Source: Clostridia bacterium DTU065 (GTDB lineage: Bacteria > Bacillota > DTU065). From it: a DNA stretch of 63,383 nt. A program made the position numbers and the translations under genes. The DNA lies in NCBI GenBank assembly GCA_001512545.1, contig LFSI01000061.1:1-63383 (forward strand), written 5' to 3'. Below are positions 421 through 58,207 of this stretch, in pieces (the first letter of the stretch is position 1; each line of letters starts with the position of its first letter). The notes under the pieces were generated by a model. That model worked only from the letters and a program-made list of their open reading frames with translations. It did no database searches and was not told the origin of the DNA.

Positions 421-3400
421 TTAAAACAGAGACATCTGGTCGGTTTCGGGCAGTCCTTCCAAACATCCTGCAGAGCGCAGTGCATCAATCACCGCTCTGG
501 AGACTCTTGCCTTCTCCTGAAGATCCTGAATGGACCGGAACTCTCCGTTTGTGCTGGCTGCTGCAGCGAGAGCTTCTGCCGCTGCTGCTCCAACACCATC
601 CAGTGCTGAAAGGGGTGGGAGGAGCCCGGTAGGCGTGATCTTCATGGCGAAAGCATCGGACTCGTACAGGTCAATCTCCCGGAAAACGATTCCCCTTTGC
701 AGCGCTTCAAGAACAATCTCGAGGCTGGTGACAAGTCCAGCTTCTTTCTCTGAGAGGTCGCTGCCTTTGGCCTTCAGCTCCGCAAGGCGCATCTTGACGG
801 CATCTACTCCTTTGGCGGCAGAGTCTGCAGGAAACTCCGATGCTCTGATGGAGAAAAACGCTGCATAGTACGCTTCTGGGTAGTGCACTTTGAAGTAGGC
901 AATTCTAAACGCCATAATCACGTACGCTACAGCATGGGCTTTAGGGAAGAGGTAGCTGATCTTCCGGCAGGATTCAATGTACCACTGGGGTATGCCAACT
1001 TGCTCCATGGCAGAGACGTCTTCGTCGGAGAGGCCTCTACCCTTTCTCACCCGTTCCATGATACTGAAAGCTTTCTTAGGCTCCATGCCCTTTTGAATCA
1101 AAAAGTTCATGATATCATCGCGGGTGGCAATGGCGTCTTTGGCATCGGCTATACCATTTCGAATCAGGTCTTGGGCGTTGTTGGTCCAAACATCGGTGCC
1201 GTGGGAGAATCCGGAGATGCGGATCAGCTCGGCAAAGCTGGTGGGTTTGATCTCTTCAACCATGCGACGAACAAAGCTGGTACCAAACTCCGGTATGCCC
1301 AATACTCCTACTGAGAGGCCACCGATGTCTTCAGGTTCGAGGCCTAGGCTTTCCACTCCGGTAAAGAGAGCCATGGTCTTTGGATCATCTAGGGGGATCT
1401 CTGTTGGGTTAAGGCCGGTGAGATCTGCTAGCATCCGCAGCATGGTCGGATCGTCGTGTCCTAAGATATCCAGCTTTACCAGATTCTCGTCGATAGAATG
1501 GAAATCAAAATGGGTGGTTATAAAGCCCGCTTCGCTGTCGTTTGCCGGATGCTGAATCGGGGTAAATTCGTATATCTCTCTGCCTTCAGGCACCACCACC
1601 ATACCGCCAGGATGCTGGCCTGTAGTGCGCCTGATGCCCACGAGAGCCCTGGTAACCCTGTTAATCTCGGCTTCCGGCCACACGGTACCGCTTTCTTCCA
1701 GGTACTTGGCCACAAAACCATAGGCGGTCTTTTCCGCCAGCGTACCGATGGTTCCCGCCCTGAAGACGTGGTCTTTGCCGAAGAGCTCTTCGGTGTATTT
1801 GTGAATGGTCGACTGGTAGACCCCGGAGAAGTTGAGATCGATGTCGGGGACCTTATCTCCCTCAAAACCCATAAAGATCTCAAAAGGAATGTCGAATCCG
1901 TCACGGTGCAGGGGTGTGCCACAGCTCGGGCAATCCTTTTCCGGCAGGTCTACACCGCAGCCGTAGCTGGGGTCTGGTACCAGTTCGAAGTGGTGGCACT
2001 CGGGACAGATGTAGTGAGGCGGCAGCGGATTGACCTCGGTAATATCGCACATGGTGGCAACCAGTGAAGAGCCAACAGAGCCCCTAGACCCCACTAAGTA
2101 TCCGTCCTCGAGGGATTTGAGAACCAACTTGTTGGCGATGAGGTAAAGCACGGCAAAGCCGTTTGAGATAATCGCTTTCAGCTCTTTTTCCAACCTCTCC
2201 TTGACGATGGTTGGTAGGTTTTCACCATAGATCTCATAAGCTTTCTTGTAGGTCATTTCCTCGATGGCTTTTTCTGCCCCTTCGATCACCGGCGGGCAAA
2301 ACTCGTCGGAGATCGGTTTTACGTCTTCAATCATATCGGCTATAAGGTTGGTGTTGGTGACAACCACTTCATAAGCCGCTTCCTCTCCCAAGTATCTAAA
2401 CTCCTCTAGCATCTCTTCGGTAGTGCGGTAGTAGAGGGGAGGTTGATTTGCAGCATCTTGGTATCCCTGACCTGCCAGAAGCACTCGGCGGAAAACCTCG
2501 TCTTCAGGATTGAGAAAGTGCACATCGCCTGTTGCCACCACAGGAATATCCAAAGCCTTGCCGATCCTGTAGATGAGCGTATTGATCTCCTCTAGTTCTT
2601 TAAACGAAGAGACGATGTTTTCCCTAATCATGAAGGCGTTGTTTCCCAGAGGTTGGATCTCCAGGTAATCGTAAAATCTTGCAATCTCCAGGATCGCCTC
2701 ATCGTCAACCATATCGAAGATGCTGTCGTAGTAATTGCGTTTATGGAGAATGGCTTGGTAGAGCTCGCCAGCTTCGCAAGCTGAGCCTAAAATCAAGCCC
2801 TCCCGCAGCTCACATAGAGTCTCCTTGATCATGCGGGGATGCCTGTAAAAGCTTTCAATGTGGCTCAGACTAACCAGCTTGTAGAGGTTGAACATCCCCT
2901 TTTGGTTCTTCACCAGCACAATAATGTGGTAGGTGGGCTCTTCCTTGGCAGCACTGTTTGCCAGATACCCCTCTACGCCGTAGAGCACTTTAACGCCGAA
3001 CTTCGAGGCACGCTTGTAGAACTCGGGAAAAGCCTGCACAGTTCCGTGGTCCGTAACTGCCAGTCTGTCATGTCCCATCGTCTTTGCCAGAGCCAGGACG
3101 TCCTGCGGATCTACCACTGCATCAAGGGAACTGAGCTTGGTGTGCAGGTGAAGCTCAACCCGCTTTGCAGAAGCTCCGTCTATCCGCTCTTTGGGCTCTG
3201 CTTCGTTTATTGCGTTGGGATAGATTACAAGCCCGCGGGAGTATGTATCGTACTCCATCCTGCCCTCCAGAAGCACCCAACAGCCCTCCTTGATGAACTC
3301 GGGAAGGATTGCATCCTTGTCCAAGAAAACCTTCACAGGGTAGGTGCTGGTATAGTCCGTTACATCGAGTGTCAAGAGAGTCCTCCCGGTTTTAAACTCC

Positions 3401-3858
3401 CGTCGCTCCAAGCTGCAGATCCGACCGTAAACAGTGACGCTGGGCAGCTCCTCGCTGATTTCACTGAGCTTAACAGGAGTTCCAGTGACCGTGCTTTCAA
3501 AGACGCTCCTCCGCGCTCTGCGGCGACCACCGCCCTGTTCTGCAGCGTCGGGCCTGCTTCCGCTGTTTTGTCCGGTATTGGGCATGACCTTTGGCTTTAC
3601 GGGCTTAGGCTTATCTCCCGTATAGTCTGAGTCCTCAAGCCAGCAGCAGACGTTAATGGTTCTTGCTTCAGGAATGTGGGACTTGATGGCGTCTCTGATC
3701 TTTTGCTTGGTCTTGAAGTCCAGTTCTGTATGGCTTCTAACGTCGACCTCCAAGCGCCCCCGTTCCTCATCTACTACTACGCGCACTATCCGGACAGGGA
3801 GATCCGGTAGGAGCTTTCGGCATTTTTCTTCGTTTGGTTCGATAATGTAGGTTGCCAT
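421..3858 (-). CDS. polC: DNA polymerase III PolC-type alpha subunit lacking the exonuclease domain
   Basis: Replicative polymerase of low-GC Gram-positives, 1145 aa. Order: N-terminal domain (1-120), OB fold (about 135-215), PHP domain (from about 235, HLHTKLSSLDAV), palm with SRGSVGSSLVATM, a four-Cys zinc site (CPEC...CPSC), catalytic PDIDLNF near residue 670 and VKLDILG, and a C-terminal clamp-binding QMSLF at the very end. Typical PolC is about 1400-1450 aa because a DnaQ-like 3'-5' exonuclease is inserted in the PHP domain. Here the PHP segment YGVEGY passes straight to PTYHIIVLVKN (about residues 290-310) with no exonuclease and no VFDxETTG motif. The SD GAGGTG precedes the ATG. It is the last gene of the block. 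Confidence 0.97.
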   Translation of the reverse strand: MATYIIEPNEEKCRKLLPDLPVRIVRVVVDEERGRLEVDVRSHTELDFKTKQKIRDAIKSHIPEARTINVCCWLEDSDYTGDKPKPVKPKVMPNTGQNSGSRPDAAEQGGGRRRARRSVFESTVTGTPVKLSEISEELPSVTVYGRICSLERREFKTGRTLLTLDVTDYTSTYPVKVFLDKDAILPEFIKEGCWVLLEGRMEYDTYSRGLVIYPNAINEAEPKERIDGASAKRVELHLHTKLSSLDAVVDPQDVLALAKTMGHDRLAVTDHGTVQAFPEFYKRASKFGVKVLYGVEGYLANSAAKEEPTYHIIVLVKNQKGMFNLYKLVSLSHIESFYRHPRMIKETLCELREGLILGSACEAGELYQAILHKRNYYDSIFDMVDDEAILEIARFYDYLEIQPLGNNAFMIRENIVSSFKELEEINTLIYRIGKALDIPVVATGDVHFLNPEDEVFRRVLLAGQGYQDAANQPPLYYRTTEEMLEEFRYLGEEAAYEVVVTNTNLIADMIEDVKPISDEFCPPVIEGAEKAIEEMTYKKAYEIYGENLPTIVKERLEKELKAIISNGFAVLYLIANKLVLKSLEDGYLVGSRGSVGSSLVATMCDITEVNPLPPHYICPECHHFELVPDPSYGCGVDLPEKDCPSCGTPLHRDGFDIPFEIFMGFEGDKVPDIDLNFSGVYQSTIHKYTEELFGKDHVFRAGTIGTLAEKTAYGFVAKYLEESGTVWPEAEINRVTRALVGIRRTTGQHPGGMVVVPEGREIYEFTPIQHPANDSEAGFITTHFDFHSIDENLVKLDILGHDDPTMLRMLADLTGLNPTEIPLDDPKTMALFTGVESLGLEPEDIGGLSVGVLGIPEFGTSFVRRMVEEIKPTSFAELIRISGFSHGTDVWTNNAQDLIRNGIADAKDAIATRDDIMNFLIQKGMEPKKAFSIMERVRKGRGLSDEDVSAMEQVGIPQWYIESCRKISYLFPKAHAVAYVIMAFRIAYFKVHYPEAYYAAFFSIRASEFPADSAAKGVDAVKMRLAELKAKGSDLSEKEAGLVTSLEIVLEALQRGIVFREIDLYESDAFAMKITPTGLLPPLSALDGVGAAAAEALAAAASTNGEFRSIQDLQEKARVSRAVIDALRSAGCLEGLPETDQMSLF

Positions 3859-51758: not shown

Positions 51759-52022
51759 TTATGGACGCTGCTTCACATCGCTCAAAAACCGTTTGATCGC
51801 AGCCACGAGAGCTTTATGATTCCCCTTCGTTCCTCTCTCCTGCTGCATACTAGACAGCGAACGCCCTTTACGTCCCACCGCACCACGCTCCTCGCAAGTA
51901 GTACGGTTTACCCACCTTTTCATACCAAAATCTACCAGTATAATCGCTGTGGCAGTGGTTATCATAACTAATGAGGCAGCAGTCACTATGCAGAATTTTT
52001 GATTGCTTGCCTTCATACCCAC
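51759..52022 (-). CDS. Possible small membrane-anchored basic protein opposite small RNA B
   Basis: 87 aa from GTG (or ATG at 52016): a membrane helix near residues 10-32 (FCIVTAASLVMITTATAIILV) then a basic tail. No good SD. It overlaps small RNA B on the opposite strand. The terminator 13 bp after its stop supports a transcript, but the frame could be incidental. No family recognised. Confidence 0.35.
   Translation of the reverse strand: MGMKASNQKFCIVTAASLVMITTATAIILVDFGMKRWVNRTTCEERGAVGRKGRSLSSMQQERGTKGNHKALVAAIKRFLSDVKQRP
51938..51966 (+). promoter_or_regulatory. Sigma-F-like promoter of small RNA B
   Basis: GTATA (51938-51942), 14-bp spacer, GGTTATCATA (51957-51966), close to the sigma-F consensus GYWTA-N15-GGNNANANTA with two deviations. 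The RNA block begins 5 nt downstream. Confidence 0.5.
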
Positions 52023-52053
52023 AGGTCTTTTGACCTGTGGGTTTATTTTTTTT
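51972..52053 (+). ncRNA. Small RNA B, paralog of the RNA at 48653
   Basis: About 80 nt: TGAGGC start, TTGATTGCTTGCCT block and a terminator CCCACAGGTC, TTTT, GACCTGTGGG (52018-52041) followed by TTTATTTTTTTT. Gap-free alignment to RNA A with 41 of 54 identities before the hairpin. The two terminator stems differ by a compensatory pair (GGTT/AACC versus GGTC/GACC), which supports selection for structure. No conserved reading frame. Confidence 0.75.
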
Positions 52054-52098: not shown

Positions 52099-52127
52099 TT
52101 GCCCTTTGCAGAGTTCGGGTATATAAT
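52099..52127 (+). promoter_or_regulatory. Sigma-A promoter of the imuB-like/dnaE2 cassette
   Basis: TTGCCC (52099-52104), 17-bp spacer, TATAAT (52122-52127). Transcription should start near 52134, beside the LexA box. Confidence 0.8.
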
Positions 52128-52135
52128 AATATACA

Positions 52136-52149
52136 CAAACATATGTTCG
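52136..52149 (+). promoter_or_regulatory. LexA (DinR) box
   Basis: CAAACATATGTTCG matches the Gram-positive consensus CGAACATATGTTCG at 13 of 14 positions. It overlaps the expected transcription start and lies 19 bp before the imuB-like start, so LexA bound here would block initiation. This marks the cassette as SOS-controlled. Confidence 0.85.
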
Positions 52150-52167
52150 CTATAGAGGTGACCTGCT

Positions 52168-53010
52168 TTGTTTTCCTACTTACTTACTGCTCCATCTCTA
52201 GAAAAACGCTATAAGGTCTACTGCAAAACACCCTTCTTCCGCGAAGAGCTCTCCGGCTATGCAATGATGCTCGGCGAAACCAGCAAGGACGAACTTCTGG
52301 ACTGGGGCAGGCAGCTTGGAGGCTGCCTCAGCGTGGCCGAAAATTTGTTGATTGCCAAAGCCATTGCGCTTTTTCAAAATAAGTCCGGGCTTTTTTGGGC
52401 AAATTCTAGAACCGCCTTTTATAAACTTCCCGTTTACTACCTCTGGCCTGTTGCAACGAAAACTCTCGATGACTTCTTTGAAACAGGCTTCACCACAATT
52501 GGCTCTCTGCAAGAAATTCCCCTAGAATCTCTGGAAGGCCGCTTAGGAGAAGAAGGCAAAAAAATCTACAACTACTGCAGGGGTATCGACCATACGCAGA
52601 TTCGGCCTAATCCTCCGTTCTTTGAGAAAGTCTTCCGCAGCAAAGATCCGGACCAAGTTCTTTTGTCCCTCATGCGGGAGCTCCCCAAGCATGCTAAAAG
52701 CATTTGGCTCACTTCAGAAAAAAGCAGCATCGAACTGTGCCAGGACAAAATCGGCAGGCTCTCTCTGTCTCTAGCCCTAAAAGCTCTTTTCCCCTGGGAA
52801 ACTCTAACCTGCCTGGTTTGGGAAATGCCCAAGGCCCATCAAAAAAGTCTTTTTGACTTCAGCCTTCCAGACGTGGTTCAAAGCCTTCTGGACCAAGAGA
52901 AAAACCTGACCCTTGGCATCTCCGTCAGCCGCCGCGAAAAAGTGCGTAGATCCAACTTCATCTGGGGGTATGGAAGTGGCTCATATCTGGGAAAAACCCA
53001 TAGCAATTAA
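52168..53010 (+). CDS. ImuB-like, reduced Y-family polymerase homolog
   Basis: 280 aa, TTG start with GAGGTG at 7 nt. Residues about 60-85 (SVAENLLIAKAIALF) resemble the end of a Y-family palm; 88-150 (LPVYYLWPVATKTLDDFFETGFTTIGSLQEIPLESLEGRLGEEGKKIYNYCRGID) is the HhH thumb region of DinB/ImuB; the C-terminal part fits a little finger. Residues 225-229 are QKSLF, a clamp-binding pentapeptide. About 90 palm residues with the catalytic acids are missing, so it cannot polymerise. ImuB adapters link DnaE2 to the clamp in SOS mutagenesis. Its end overlaps the DUF6504 gene. Confidence 0.7.
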   Translation: MFSYLLTAPSLEKRYKVYCKTPFFREELSGYAMMLGETSKDELLDWGRQLGGCLSVAENLLIAKAIALFQNKSGLFWANSRTAFYKLPVYYLWPVATKTLDDFFETGFTTIGSLQEIPLESLEGRLGEEGKKIYNYCRGIDHTQIRPNPPFFEKVFRSKDPDQVLLSLMRELPKHAKSIWLTSEKSSIELCQDKIGRLSLSLALKALFPWETLTCLVWEMPKAHQKSLFDFSLPDVVQSLLDQEKNLTLGISVSRREKVRRSNFIWGYGSGSYLGKTHSN

Positions 53011-53203
53011 AGACAACAGTTTTGTGTTTAGAAACGTCCGCTACACCATCGTTGCAGAGCTGGACAGCTGGTGTGAAAGCGGAGCCTGGTGGCATGGAGA
53101 GCCGGTGCTGTACTTTTCTCTGGTGAAAACGGACCCTGAAGGGCTTTTTGAAATAGCGTACACCCCTACTAAAGAAGCGCTCTTATATCAGAGTTTTGAC
53201 TAA
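52970..53203 (+). CDS. DUF6504-like protein of DnaE2/ImuB cassettes
   Basis: 77 aa: EKPIAIKDNSFVFRNVRYTIVAELDSWCESGAWWHGEPVLYFSLVKTDPEGLFEIAYTPTKEALLYQSFD. The F-x-NVRY, LDSWxxxGAWW and Y-F-x-V pattern matches small DUF6504 proteins next to dnaE2 and imuB in actinobacteria. It overlaps the imuB-like gene by 41 bp in the +1 frame and its ATG has only GGGGGT directly upstream, so it depends on coupling, or the two were once fused. Thirteen bp before dnaE2. Confidence 0.65.
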   Translation: MEVAHIWEKPIAIKDNSFVFRNVRYTIVAELDSWCESGAWWHGEPVLYFSLVKTDPEGLFEIAYTPTKEALLYQSFD

Positions 53204-53216
53204 AGGAGATTGTATT

Positions 53217-56024
53217 ATGGCTATATCACTTCACACTCATTCTGCCTACTCGCTCCTTGACGGAGCAAGCAGGCCTTACGACCTGATTAAAAGAGGCAGT
53301 GAGCTGGGATATGTGGCAATAGCTCTAACCGATCACGACAGCGTCTCTGGAGTTTGGGAGTTTCAAAGACTTGCCCTTGATGCAGGGATCAAACCAATTA
53401 TCGGCTGCGAAGTTACGCTAGAAGACGGCAGCCACCTGACGCTGATAGCGGAAAACTACACCGGCTACCAGAAAATCTGCTCTTACTTAAACATGACCGA
53501 TAAAGCTGACAAGTTCCTCCCCCATGGGGAGGGAATTTTTGCCCTTTCCGGCTGCAGGAACTCCAAGCTGCAGAGGCTACTCCTAAGGCGACGCTACAAA
53601 GAGGCACTGGAACTGGCAAAAGAGCTTTACTTGTTTTTCGAAGGACGCTTTTTTATCGAAATGACCAATGACCTTCTTCCCCGTACCAACGAGATCTTGA
53701 ATAGCCTAGATGAACTCGGTAAAGAACTGCAAATTCCCACTGTGGCATCGGTGGATGTTCACTATGCCTGCGAAGAAGACTTTCCGGTTCACGATAGCTT
53801 GAGCTGCATTCGTCTGGGCATCAAGCTCGAAGACGTGCACCCTGAAAGATCCTTCAACAACGCCGGCTATCTCTGCTCCCCTGATGAGCTTGTAAAGCGC
53901 TTTTCGAACTTCTCCAATGCCCTACAGGGAATGCACTATTTGGCAGAGATATGCGAGTCAAAGCCCCTGTCGCCGCCAATGCTTTTACCTAGCACTCCCG
54001 GCGCTAAAGAAAAACTCCGGGAGATTGCCTTGGCAGGTCTTGAGAAAAAATACGGAACAGGCAACCGCAGAGCTTTGGCAAGGTTGGAGCACGAGCTCTC
54101 TACCATCTCCGCCCTGGGCTACGACAGCTACTTTCTTCTGGTCCACGACCTCATTTGCGAGGCAAGAAGGAGGAATATCGCCTATCAGGGACGTGGATCG
54201 GCAGCAGGATCCCTAGTAAGCTACTGCCTAGATCTCACGCAAGTAGATCCCATTGAACATAACTTGGTGTTTGAGCGTTTTTTAAGCGTTGAACGGGGGC
54301 AGCAGCCGGACATCGACATCGATTTCGATTGGGCTAAAAGAGATCAGCTTTGGGATTATCTAGAAGGCAAGTACGGCAGCAGTCATGTGGCAAGTATCGC
54401 AGCTTTCCACTGCTACAGGGAAGACATGGCTCGAAATGATCTTCTCAGAATCGGCTTGTCTCCAGAGCTCATTCCGCAGCTTACAGGTAAAATGTACGGT
54501 CTGCCCAGGCATATCGCCACGCACTCTAGCGGAATCGCCATAGCTTCGGAAGACCTTTCGCGCCACGCTCCCCTTGTGGAAGCGGCAACTGGCCGAAAAA
54601 TTGTCGCACTGGACAAAGACGACATTGAAGAAATAGGCATTGTAAAGCTCGATCTTCTTTCCCTGCGAACTCTCGGAGCCCTTTCCGAGCTGAATCTGCC
54701 CATCAAGCCCGAAGACCCAGCCACCTATAAAATGCTGCAGGAAGGAAAGAGCCTGGGAGTCTTTCAGCTGGAAAGCCCTGCACAAAGAAGCCTCCAGCAG
54801 AGGCTAAAACCTGAGAGGTTCAGCGATGTCGTGGCAAGCGTAGCGCTGATCAGGCCCGGACCTATTAGGGGCAATATGGTAGAGCCCTACATCAAGCGCC
54901 ACAACAGGGAAGAAGAGGCTAGCTACCCTGCAGAAGAGCTGAAACCCTACCTGGAAAAAACCTTCGGCCTCATTGTCTTCCAGGAACAGATCATTCAGAT
55001 CGTATCTGCTCTAGGGGGCTTCTCACCAGGAGAGTCCGACAAGCTGCGCAAAATGCTCTCCAATAAAAAGAGGGAACGCGAGCTTTACGACTTTCACGTC
55101 CAGTTCGTGGAGCGGGCCGTAGCAAGGGGTGTGCCCGAAGACACCGCAGAAAGCATCTTCCAAACCCTCGAAGGCTTTTCCGGCTACGGCTTCTGCGAAG
55201 CTCATTCTGCTTCTTTTGCCCAAACAGCTTATAAAACTGCTTTTTTGCGGTGCCACTACCCTGCAGAATTTTTCGGCGCTCTCATCAACAACCAGCCTCT
55301 CGGGTACTATCTTCCCCAGTCTCTCCTTTGGGAAGCCAAACGCCTGGGAGTAAAAGTTGTGCCTTTAGACATCAACAAATCGCCGCATGAAACCTACGGT
55401 AAAGACTCCATGCTTTATTTGGGGCTGAAGCTCATCAATGGCTTCTCTGCAAAAACCATGGACTACATTCTGGAAAACCGTCCCTTAAGTCTGGAAGACA
55501 TCAAAAAGATCCCCAGCAAAGAGCGGCGCCTTTTGGTGCTTTCAGGGGCGCTGGACTCCTTCGGCCAAAGCCGCAGAAGCCTTCTGTGGGAAGCGTGGGG
55601 CACAAAGCCGATTCCCGGCGACTTTACTCCTTGGGAGCGCTTTTTGCGAGAGATCAAGGTTTTGGACCTGTCTCCTTCTTACCACGTAATGCACTTTTTC
55701 AGGCCCAAAATCCCCAACTATATACCTACAGCCGACGAGGTTTTCCAGAGACAAGGGCGCATTCAATTTGCAGGACAGATCCTCAGACCTCACCGCCCGC
55801 CCACTAAAAGCGGCAAAACGGTAGTGTTCTTTGTTATGGAAGATGAAACCGGGCAGGTGGATGTCACTTACTTCCCCAGAGAAAACCATCAGATTTCCAT
55901 CAGGGAGGGAGGCATAGCGGTCGTTACCGGAACCATAGATCAGGAAAGAAAGAGCATCATTTTAGAGGGAATCTCCTACCTCGGAAGACCTGTGGCAAAC
56001 CCTGATCTGCGACAGGAGGTATAG
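53217..56024 (+). CDS. dnaE2: Error-prone DNA polymerase DnaE2 (ImuC), compact form
   Basis: 935 aa C-family polymerase. PHP domain (LHTHSAYSLLDGASRPYDLI, ALTDHDSVSGV), palm QGRGSAAGSLVSYCLDLTQVDP, catalytic D365/D367 in PDIDIDFD and D479 in VKLDLLSLRTL, fingers LIRPGPIRGNMVEPY and FSGYGFCEAHSASFAQTAYKTAFLRCHYPAEF, the DnaE2 hallmark NNQPLGYYLPQSLLWEAKRLGVKVVPLDIN, and a C-terminal OB fold. The two catalytic Asp groups are 112 apart, versus about 150 in E. coli DnaE, so part of the thumb is absent. ATG with AAAGGAG at 8 nt. Translesion role inferred from context. Confidence 0.9.
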   Translation: MAISLHTHSAYSLLDGASRPYDLIKRGSELGYVAIALTDHDSVSGVWEFQRLALDAGIKPIIGCEVTLEDGSHLTLIAENYTGYQKICSYLNMTDKADKFLPHGEGIFALSGCRNSKLQRLLLRRRYKEALELAKELYLFFEGRFFIEMTNDLLPRTNEILNSLDELGKELQIPTVASVDVHYACEEDFPVHDSLSCIRLGIKLEDVHPERSFNNAGYLCSPDELVKRFSNFSNALQGMHYLAEICESKPLSPPMLLPSTPGAKEKLREIALAGLEKKYGTGNRRALARLEHELSTISALGYDSYFLLVHDLICEARRRNIAYQGRGSAAGSLVSYCLDLTQVDPIEHNLVFERFLSVERGQQPDIDIDFDWAKRDQLWDYLEGKYGSSHVASIAAFHCYREDMARNDLLRIGLSPELIPQLTGKMYGLPRHIATHSSGIAIASEDLSRHAPLVEAATGRKIVALDKDDIEEIGIVKLDLLSLRTLGALSELNLPIKPEDPATYKMLQEGKSLGVFQLESPAQRSLQQRLKPERFSDVVASVALIRPGPIRGNMVEPYIKRHNREEEASYPAEELKPYLEKTFGLIVFQEQIIQIVSALGGFSPGESDKLRKMLSNKKRERELYDFHVQFVERAVARGVPEDTAESIFQTLEGFSGYGFCEAHSASFAQTAYKTAFLRCHYPAEFFGALINNQPLGYYLPQSLLWEAKRLGVKVVPLDINKSPHETYGKDSMLYLGLKLINGFSAKTMDYILENRPLSLEDIKKIPSKERRLLVLSGALDSFGQSRRSLLWEAWGTKPIPGDFTPWERFLREIKVLDLSPSYHVMHFFRPKIPNYIPTADEVFQRQGRIQFAGQILRPHRPPTKSGKTVVFFVMEDETGQVDVTYFPRENHQISIREGGIAVVTGTIDQERKSIILEGISYLGRPVANPDLRQEV

Positions 56025-57166: not shown

Positions 57167-58207
57167 ATGCTCCGGAGAAATACAGTTCTTTTTCTGTTTC
57201 TTGCTTCACTGCTTCTATCGGGATGCCTTTTCCGCGAAACTCGAGTTGGCAGCATCGCAGGAACCATAGTGATCCGGGAGGAGCTGGCAGATGCTGTAGA
57301 GATTAACTCGCACCCAGCAATACCCAAAGGTTACGTTCCCCTTAAAGATGCTACTGTAACAACAAAGAGCGGTAGATCTACCAAGACCAACCAGAATGGG
57401 TATTTCCTCATAGACCGCATCCCCGAAGGTCGCGAAGAAGTCACCGTAACGGTGCCCCAGCTCGATCTGGTGAAGCGCTTTGAAGTAGACGTTTACCCGG
57501 GCGTTGTTAACACGATCTTCTATCCTGTTGGCAAAGGGTACTACATCATCATCGGAATTGGCAAATATTTGCATTTAGCCGATCTTAACTCTGCTGATGC
57601 CAATGCTGTGGAAGCCTTTTTTGCAAGCTCGCCAAACGTGGTCAAAACCATTAGAGACGAAGATGCCACCCGTGCCAACATTGAGGAGCAGTTCGCTGAA
57701 CTAAAAAAGATGTTGAGCCCCGAAGACTTTCTTGTGATCTATTTCTCAGGTCACGGACACCAAGGACTTCTAGCCCTGTACGGCTACAGCGAAGAAAACC
57801 GCGAGGAAGCCCTATACGAAAGCGATCTCAAGGAACTGTTGTCTCAGATGCCTACAGAAAACATCACGCTGATCGTTGACGCCTGCAATTCTGGCTCGCT
57901 TTTTGATGGAACCGTCCAGACTCGTGCTCTCAAAGAGACCAACTACGTCATTTTGGCGTCGTCGCAACCGGACCAGAACTCCTATCAGTATGCCGATGAC
58001 GGCGGTTTGGGGTACTTCACCAAGCATTTTTTACTAGGGCTCCTGAACCGCAGGGCTGACTACAACAAAGACGGAAGTATCACGTCCAAGGAGATTTTTA
58101 CCTACGTCTACGGGGAACTGACCTACTACGCATCTTCAACGGAATATGCCCAAACGCCCACATACCACGATCCATTAGATCGTGAGCCTGTAATCTACAG
58201 GTATTAA
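57167..58207 (+). CDS. Lipoprotein caspase-family peptidase (C14) with EF-hand loop
   Basis: 346 aa. Lipobox LLLSGC with Cys20; a carboxypeptidase-regulatory-like beta domain (VPLKDATVTTKSGRSTKTNQNGYFLIDRIPEG, about 60-115); then a C14 caspase domain with catalytic His196 in YFSGHGHQG and Cys240 in IVDACNSGS. Near the C-terminus D298-E309 (DYNKDGSITSKE) is a perfect EF-hand calcium loop. The enzyme should sit on the outer face of the membrane. Probably cleaves after Arg/Lys like bacterial orthocaspases; substrate unknown. SD AAGGAGG at 7 nt. Confidence 0.92.
   Translation: MLRRNTVLFLFLASLLLSGCLFRETRVGSIAGTIVIREELADAVEINSHPAIPKGYVPLKDATVTTKSGRSTKTNQNGYFLIDRIPEGREEVTVTVPQLDLVKRFEVDVYPGVVNTIFYPVGKGYYIIIGIGKYLHLADLNSADANAVEAFFASSPNVVKTIRDEDATRANIEEQFAELKKMLSPEDFLVIYFSGHGHQGLLALYGYSEENREEALYESDLKELLSQMPTENITLIVDACNSGSLFDGTVQTRALKETNYVILASSQPDQNSYQYADDGGLGYFTKHFLLGLLNRRADYNKDGSITSKEIFTYVYGELTYYASSTEYAQTPTYHDPLDREPVIYRY

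Follow-up and report, generated by a model that had tools for sequence, protein, structure and literature searches.

A strongly reduced iPolY, ImuB-C and DnaE2 operon behind a LexA-like box in Clostridia bacterium DTU065

We analyzed a stretch of 63,383 nt from Clostridia bacterium DTU065 (contig LFSI01000061.1, assembly GCA_001512545.1), referred to here as the window; all coordinates are those of its forward strand. Toward its right end, a promoter and a LexA-like box are followed by three tightly packed plus-strand open reading frames (ORFs) that code for a reduced, inactive Y-family protein (iPolY), a stand-alone ImuB-C protein and a DnaE2 DNA polymerase. A first-pass annotation had proposed this promoter, a 13/14 LexA box and three genes, the first of them encoding the motif QKSLF, and all of these were read directly from the sequence at the places it gave. 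A hairpin that is a putative terminator separates the cassette from the upstream DNA. The features are the following.

52017..52053, + strand: terminator-like hairpin with an 11-bp perfect stem (ACCCACAGGTC/GACCTGTGGGT) and a T-run, read from the sequence
52099..52127, + strand: sigma-70-type promoter TTGCCC-N17-TATAAT (TTGCCC at 52099-52104, TATAAT at 52122-52127, 17-bp spacer), read from the sequence
52136..52149, + strand: LexA-like box CAAACATATGTTCG, 13 of 14 positions identical to CGAACATATGTTCG, directly 3' of the -10 element and over the expected start site
52168..53010, + strand: gene 1, iPolY, 280 amino acids (aa), TTG start, identified by PF21999, alignment, AlphaFold2 (AF2) model with Foldseek, and purifying selection
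52417..52608, + strand: thumb region of gene 1, residues 84-147 (PF21999 stretch 105-141; weak phmmer match of 84-146 to DNA polymerase IV, E 0.0064)
52621..52824, + strand: miniature little finger of gene 1, residues 152-219, beta-alpha-beta-beta-alpha-beta in the AF2 secondary structure, predicted local distance difference test (pLDDT) score ~70-89
52840..52854, + strand: predicted sliding-clamp-binding motif QKSLF of gene 1, with Q and LF conserved in each of the four aligned family members
52970..53203, + strand: gene 2, stand-alone ImuB-C (DUF6504-like), 77 aa, ATG start, sub-threshold to PF20114, profile-profile match to ImuB C-termini
53217..56024, + strand: gene 3, DnaE2 C-family polymerase, 935 aa, ATG start, with PHP, palm/fingers, HhH and OB

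The TTG start of gene 1 is preceded by GAGGTG, and its product matches the Y-family thumb PF21999 above the cut-off (E 6.9e-7). Alignment with other iPolYs showed that the protein begins at their first palm strand and that it lacks the fingers as well as the two catalytic carboxylate motifs. An AF2 model was built from a five-sequence alignment, and the Foldseek matches listed for it were all Y-family polymerases (DinB, MsDpo4, pol eta, Rev1 and iota), the best with E 2.7e-6. The description of gene 1 as a reduced Y-family protein was therefore upheld by both profile and structure search. The cassette ORFs are conserved in the remaining genomes of the window's family. In the other genera the gene 1 frame is intact and codes for 268-282 aa with 53-59% identity to the window protein (the start of the L027 gene was set at a conserved downstream TTG). 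The ratio of nonsynonymous to synonymous substitution (dN/dS) was ~0.07 over 117 codons against L026, the part of gene 1 that was testable and unsaturated, and 0.08 for gene 2. Purifying selection on both genes argues against decay, and conservation and dN/dS led us to reject the view that gene 1 is a pseudogene.

Gene 2 overlaps gene 1 by 41 bp. Its best start is the ATG at 52970, and the HxW start is conserved in relatives. The first-pass annotation had called the protein DUF6504-like. The window sequence scored below the cut-off of PF20114 (E 1.2e-3), the homologue in the relative L041 passed it clearly (E 1.6e-9), and a profile of ten gene 2 sequences matched five canonical ImuB proteins at their C-termini with 93% (hhalign), compared with 0.1% for an unrelated control. 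Since the profile matches these C-termini, we identify the DUF6504 protein of the cassette with the stand-alone ImuB-C described by Timinskas and Venclovas (PMC6511836). Comparison of ImuB-C with folds in the PDB gave no meaningful match, in agreement with the published remark that the PDB holds no closely related structure.

Gene 3 has an ATG start preceded by AAAGGAG. Of the NCBIfam models, PRK05672 ("error-prone DNA polymerase") scored best; its 661 bits fall short of the curated cut-off of 939 and exceed the score of PRK05673 (630 bits) by a modest margin. The protein carries QPLGYY...AKRLGVKVVPLDIN, an instance of the signature QP[LM]G[YF]Y that it has in common with DnaE2A and that is absent from DnaE1. 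It keeps the catalytic motifs PDIDIDFD and VKLDLL with the three active-site aspartates. The clamp-binding loop is missing, whereas DnaE1 proteins carry QLSLF-like motifs at that place; the clamp motif of the operon sits on iPolY because DnaE2 has lost this loop. The protein ends after the OB fold and has no C-terminal tau-binding domain, and likewise none of the DnaE2 proteins in a 2013 survey had a C-terminal domain following the OB fold (PMC3919608). The protein retains the PHP motifs HxH, D, TDH, E, H and DxH, which sets it apart from the proteobacterial DnaE2A rows of the alignment; in the ELQxH motif, the window protein has Asn in place of the histidine. In a DnaE tree of 42 rows, in which no sequence labelled DnaE2X or DnaE2B served as an anchor, the window DnaE2 grouped with the DnaE2 proteins linked to iPolY and ImuB-C in the same phylum (Shimodaira-Hasegawa-like approximate likelihood-ratio test, SH-aLRT, 95). 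These next joined the ImuA/ImuB-linked plasmid DnaE2A proteins (99), apart from the organism's own DnaE1. The five plasmid DnaE2 sequences (four annotated beside imuA or ImuA-family genes, the fifth beside "recombinase A") formed their own branch with support 100, and the window DnaE2 lies outside this DnaE2A clade. The assignment to DnaE2, and not DnaE1, thus held.

Three C-family polymerases are encoded in the genome that contains the window (G000; 2.2 Mb, 95 contigs, 93% complete): the cassette DnaE2, a DnaE1 on contig C23 and a PolC, whose presence the first-pass annotation had recognized, at the window's left end. A single DinB, with its catalytic domain complete, is present as well, along with one LexA and one recA. 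The ImuA model found nothing above its cut-off in any of 61 genomes, and in the 93% complete G000 it gave weak matches only, to RecA and to a RadA-like 470-aa frame, consistent with the proposed ImuA-less organization. The PolC (424-3462, - strand) matches its model at 2-173 and 376-1211 with nothing between, so that the integral DnaQ-type exonuclease domain is lacking, as it is in many PolC proteins of the phylum. The DnaE1 of the family (L083, at G000:C23:4428-7040, and L094-L096) is short, ~1050-1067 aa, and forms its own long branch (0.61) within DnaE1.

An observation of a different kind concerns recA. In G000 the gene lies in four pieces, with three or more interruptions (L074 942-5660; G000:C31:13241-17959). 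Rfam searches of the gaps returned four matches to group II intron domain V and two to D1-D4, and a 313-aa ORF in one gap carries a group II maturase domain. In the four remaining family genomes (G001-G004) recA is likewise broken up, at positions that vary from genus to genus; group II introns apparently split the gene in all five. In the other families sampled, the ImuA-model matches to recA were in single open frames of ~340 aa or more.

The CATATG-centred box of the cassette recurs in G000 before lexA (two boxes, contig C14) and ruvC (one, C18), and related boxes precede recA (C31) and uvrB (C38). Upstream of the cassettes in relatives, the boxes are AGAACGTATGTTCG in L027, AGAACATGTGTTCG in L028 and AGAACATCTGTTCG in L029, all of the family, and CGAACATGTGTTCT in L031, all four with at most one mismatch from CGAACNNNNGTTCG. 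A box that deviates from CGAACNNNNGTTCG at one position at most also precedes the first gene of the in-phylum cassettes for which upstream sequence is available. This Bacillus-type box CGAACNNNNGTTCG, present at the cassette promoter and common to lexA and recA, would place the cassette in a LexA (SOS) regulon, and the recurrence of the same or related boxes favors the LexA control that had been predicted. A further box, AGAACATATGTTCG, lies ~50 bp before a GNAT acetyltransferase gene (L077 1679-2313; G000:C52:41678), which is possibly another SOS gene. Downstream of the cassette, at 57167-58207, there is a lipoprotein gene whose product looks caspase-like by eye; it adjoins the cassette also in L026, L027 and L028.

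The first-pass annotation had further suggested a distinct, lineage-specific system. This part did not stand, for the iPolY, ImuB-C and DnaE2 module of the Kyrpidia type was published in 2019 (PMC6511836) and classed as DnaE2X in 2026 (PMC12926913), and in a sample of 300 genomes from across the phylum, 89 had a stand-alone ImuB-C. Among the best 30 ImuB-C loci, most have ImuB-C between a Y-family gene on its 5' side and DnaE2 on its 3' side. A DnaE2 of the cassette type was present in every family genome searched and, at E below 1e-90, in 13 of 56 in-phylum genomes outside the family. This patchy but wide distribution indicates that the system is not restricted to one lineage. PolC scored above the cut-off in 10 of those 13 genomes, so DnaE2 systems are not rare among PolC-containing Firmicutes in this sample; a 2013 survey had listed three genomes with PolC, DnaE1 and DnaE2 among 945 (PMC3919608).

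Three grades of iPolY were distinguished in the phylum. Full-length, catalytically dead proteins of ~400-490 aa are found in L031, L042, L044, L045, L047 and L115; fingerless ones of ~350-390 aa in L036, L037, L038, L039, L041 and L043; and the window's family, with 268-282 aa, has the most reduced iPolY observed. When the fingers were mapped on the DnaE2 tree, at least four changes were needed, two of them forced by well-supported branches, and one family (f11) contains both fingered and fingerless iPolYs. As regaining fingers is implausible, their loss was repeated. The RecA-NT motif also forms a series. It is of the RFG/KFG type in L031, L042, L044 and L045, of the RY[PA] type in several others, and L-x-[LI]-G in the window's family, where two residues are deleted and RRE is kept. 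Loci L032-L035, in which ORF patterns showed no cassette, were left out of this comparison, and L049 and L050 (G051 and G012), with a LexA-like box before a divergent DnaE on a long branch, were not counted as members. At L110, L119 and L040, DnaE2 (with ImuB-C in L110 and L119) has no adjoining Y-family gene, and in L110 and L040 a LexA box stands directly before the remaining genes.

These results make it probable that the cassette is an operon repressed by LexA and encodes an error-tolerant DNA polymerase made up of several proteins, of the type that combines iPolY, ImuB-C and DnaE2, has a split ImuB and lacks ImuA. By analogy with the published ImuA-ImuB-DnaE2 models, in which the ImuB thumb contacts the HhH region of DnaE2 and ImuB-C contacts its PHP domain (PMC12926913), we infer the subunit contacts, lesion bypass and mutagenesis as follows. 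DNA damage would lead to RecA filaments and LexA cleavage, and the promoter at 52099-52127 would open. DnaE2 would be the catalyst. With neither a clamp-binding loop nor a tau-binding C-terminal domain, the usual entry to the replisome would be closed to it, and gene 1 may act as a clamp adaptor or tether, its QKSLF binding the sliding clamp and its thumb contacting the HhH region of DnaE2, while ImuB-C would clip the assembly together via the PHP domain. Where a fork has stalled or a gap is left, the complex could then take over the clamp, synthesize across lesions and yield to PolC/DnaE1. According to a published proposal, RecA would stand in for the missing ImuA; this is the weakest and least certain step here because the RecA-NT motif is eroded in the window's family.

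Several observations weigh against this interpretation. The mostly intact PHP site would allow proofreading, which fits poorly with a strongly mutagenic enzyme. The aromatic anchor of the RecA-NT motif is replaced by Leu in the family, leaving a degenerate motif. The AF2 model of gene 1 has a mean pLDDT of 52.7 and is of low quality except in the thumb and little finger. The ImuA model is not very sensitive, as the Caulobacter control also fell below its cut-off, and the absence of ImuA therefore rests on G000 having no other RecA-like protein. Across G000, the LexA pattern had 66 sites at no more than one mismatch, compared with 101 for a control pattern, and a longer pattern was not enriched over its control in three of four relatives. 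The box by itself is statistically unremarkable and the LexA assignment relies on position and on recurrence at promoters; these, including the recurrence before relatives' cassettes, make the LexA-like box credible. Lastly, the window organism is a draft genome and its relatives are metagenome-assembled genomes.

The PHP site and the eroded RecA-NT motif also lend themselves to another explanation, in which the operon makes an SOS-induced, clamp-tethered polymerase for gap filling or repair with ordinary fidelity, the PHP domain proofreads, RecA is no longer used and there is no mutator. The retention of PHP motifs that differ in proteobacterial DnaE2A speaks for it; in DnaE2 proteins the PHP site is as a rule substituted, and a 2026 survey calls intact sites rare (PMC12926913). 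Nonetheless, DnaE2 proteins of the M. tuberculosis type have a mostly intact PHP site (PMC3919608) and still act in induced mutagenesis, and the metal ligands may be structural only; we consider this explanation unlikely. Stated for the family as a whole, it would make the mutasome a RecA-independent, three-protein, clamp-tethered polymerase in which the Y-family subunit is a pure clamp adaptor, RecA-NT is lost, PHP proofreads and the product is an SOS gap filler instead of a mutator, a proposal that we regard as quite unlikely.

It could also be argued that gene 1, having lost most of a polymerase, is a functionless, decaying Y-family remnant and that ImuB-C and DnaE2 alone matter, as the arrangement at L110 and L119 and the known linkage of DnaE2 to ImuB-C alone (PMC12926913) would allow. 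The intact frames, the identity across genera, the low dN/dS and the retained clamp motif already disfavor this view, which we find very improbable. That gene 3 is a second replicative DnaE1 or DnaE3 and not DnaE2 is hardly credible: the DnaE1-like RGSAAGS, the retained PHP site and the modest margin between the two PRK models would agree with it, but the tree position, QPLGYY, the missing C-terminal domain and clamp loop, and the presence of a separate DnaE1 and PolC do not. The tree, which contained no labelled DnaE3, rejected this identity.

If the cassette is, as we think probable, an error-tolerant polymerase operon, it bears on which parts of a DnaE2 mutasome are truly needed. Selection kept the thumb, the little finger and the clamp motif while almost everything else of the Y-family subunit went. 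The retained thumb and ImuB-C are the parts published as contacting DnaE2, and the pattern fits the published AlphaFold view of these two as the working interfaces; even the most reduced ImuB still has ImuB-C, little finger and thumb (PMC12926913). The cassette offers a natural minimal assembly for biochemistry and structural work, and it raises the question of proofreading and RecA dependence.

Among known systems, the closest is DnaE2X of the Kyrpidia tusciae type. In both, an inactive Y-family protein, a stand-alone ImuB-C and DnaE2 are encoded in one operon, RecA is present and ImuA was not detected, and both are found with PolC-type replication systems. The differences are that the Y-family subunit here has 268-282 aa, compared with ~350-490 in the phylum, its fingers and catalytic N-terminus being gone, and that the RecA-NT motif is eroded and the PHP site of DnaE2 mostly intact. 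The canonical ImuA-ImuB-DnaE2 systems (DnaE2A; Pseudomonas, Caulobacter, M. tuberculosis) share the LexA-type control, an inactive Y-family subunit with a clamp motif, the ImuB-C domain and a DnaE2 without the tau-binding C-terminal domain, but here there is no ImuA, ImuB is split into two overlapping genes and DnaE2 belongs to a sister clade. The reduced ImuB1 and ImuB2 (PMC12926913) likewise have a degraded Y-family core with thumb and little finger retained; they form one chain with ImuB-C and function together with ImuA, whereas here the reduction took place in a split system. The lexA-imuB-C-polY operon of Geobacter (PMC6511836) also combines a LexA-linked, stand-alone ImuB-C with a Y-family gene, but there the Y-family enzyme seems to be active and DnaE2 is not among the genes of the operon. 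The cassette is a strongly reduced variant of the module described in 2019 and 2026. What is new is the family's most reduced iPolY, maintained under purifying selection, and it is the degree of this reduction that is particular to the lineage.

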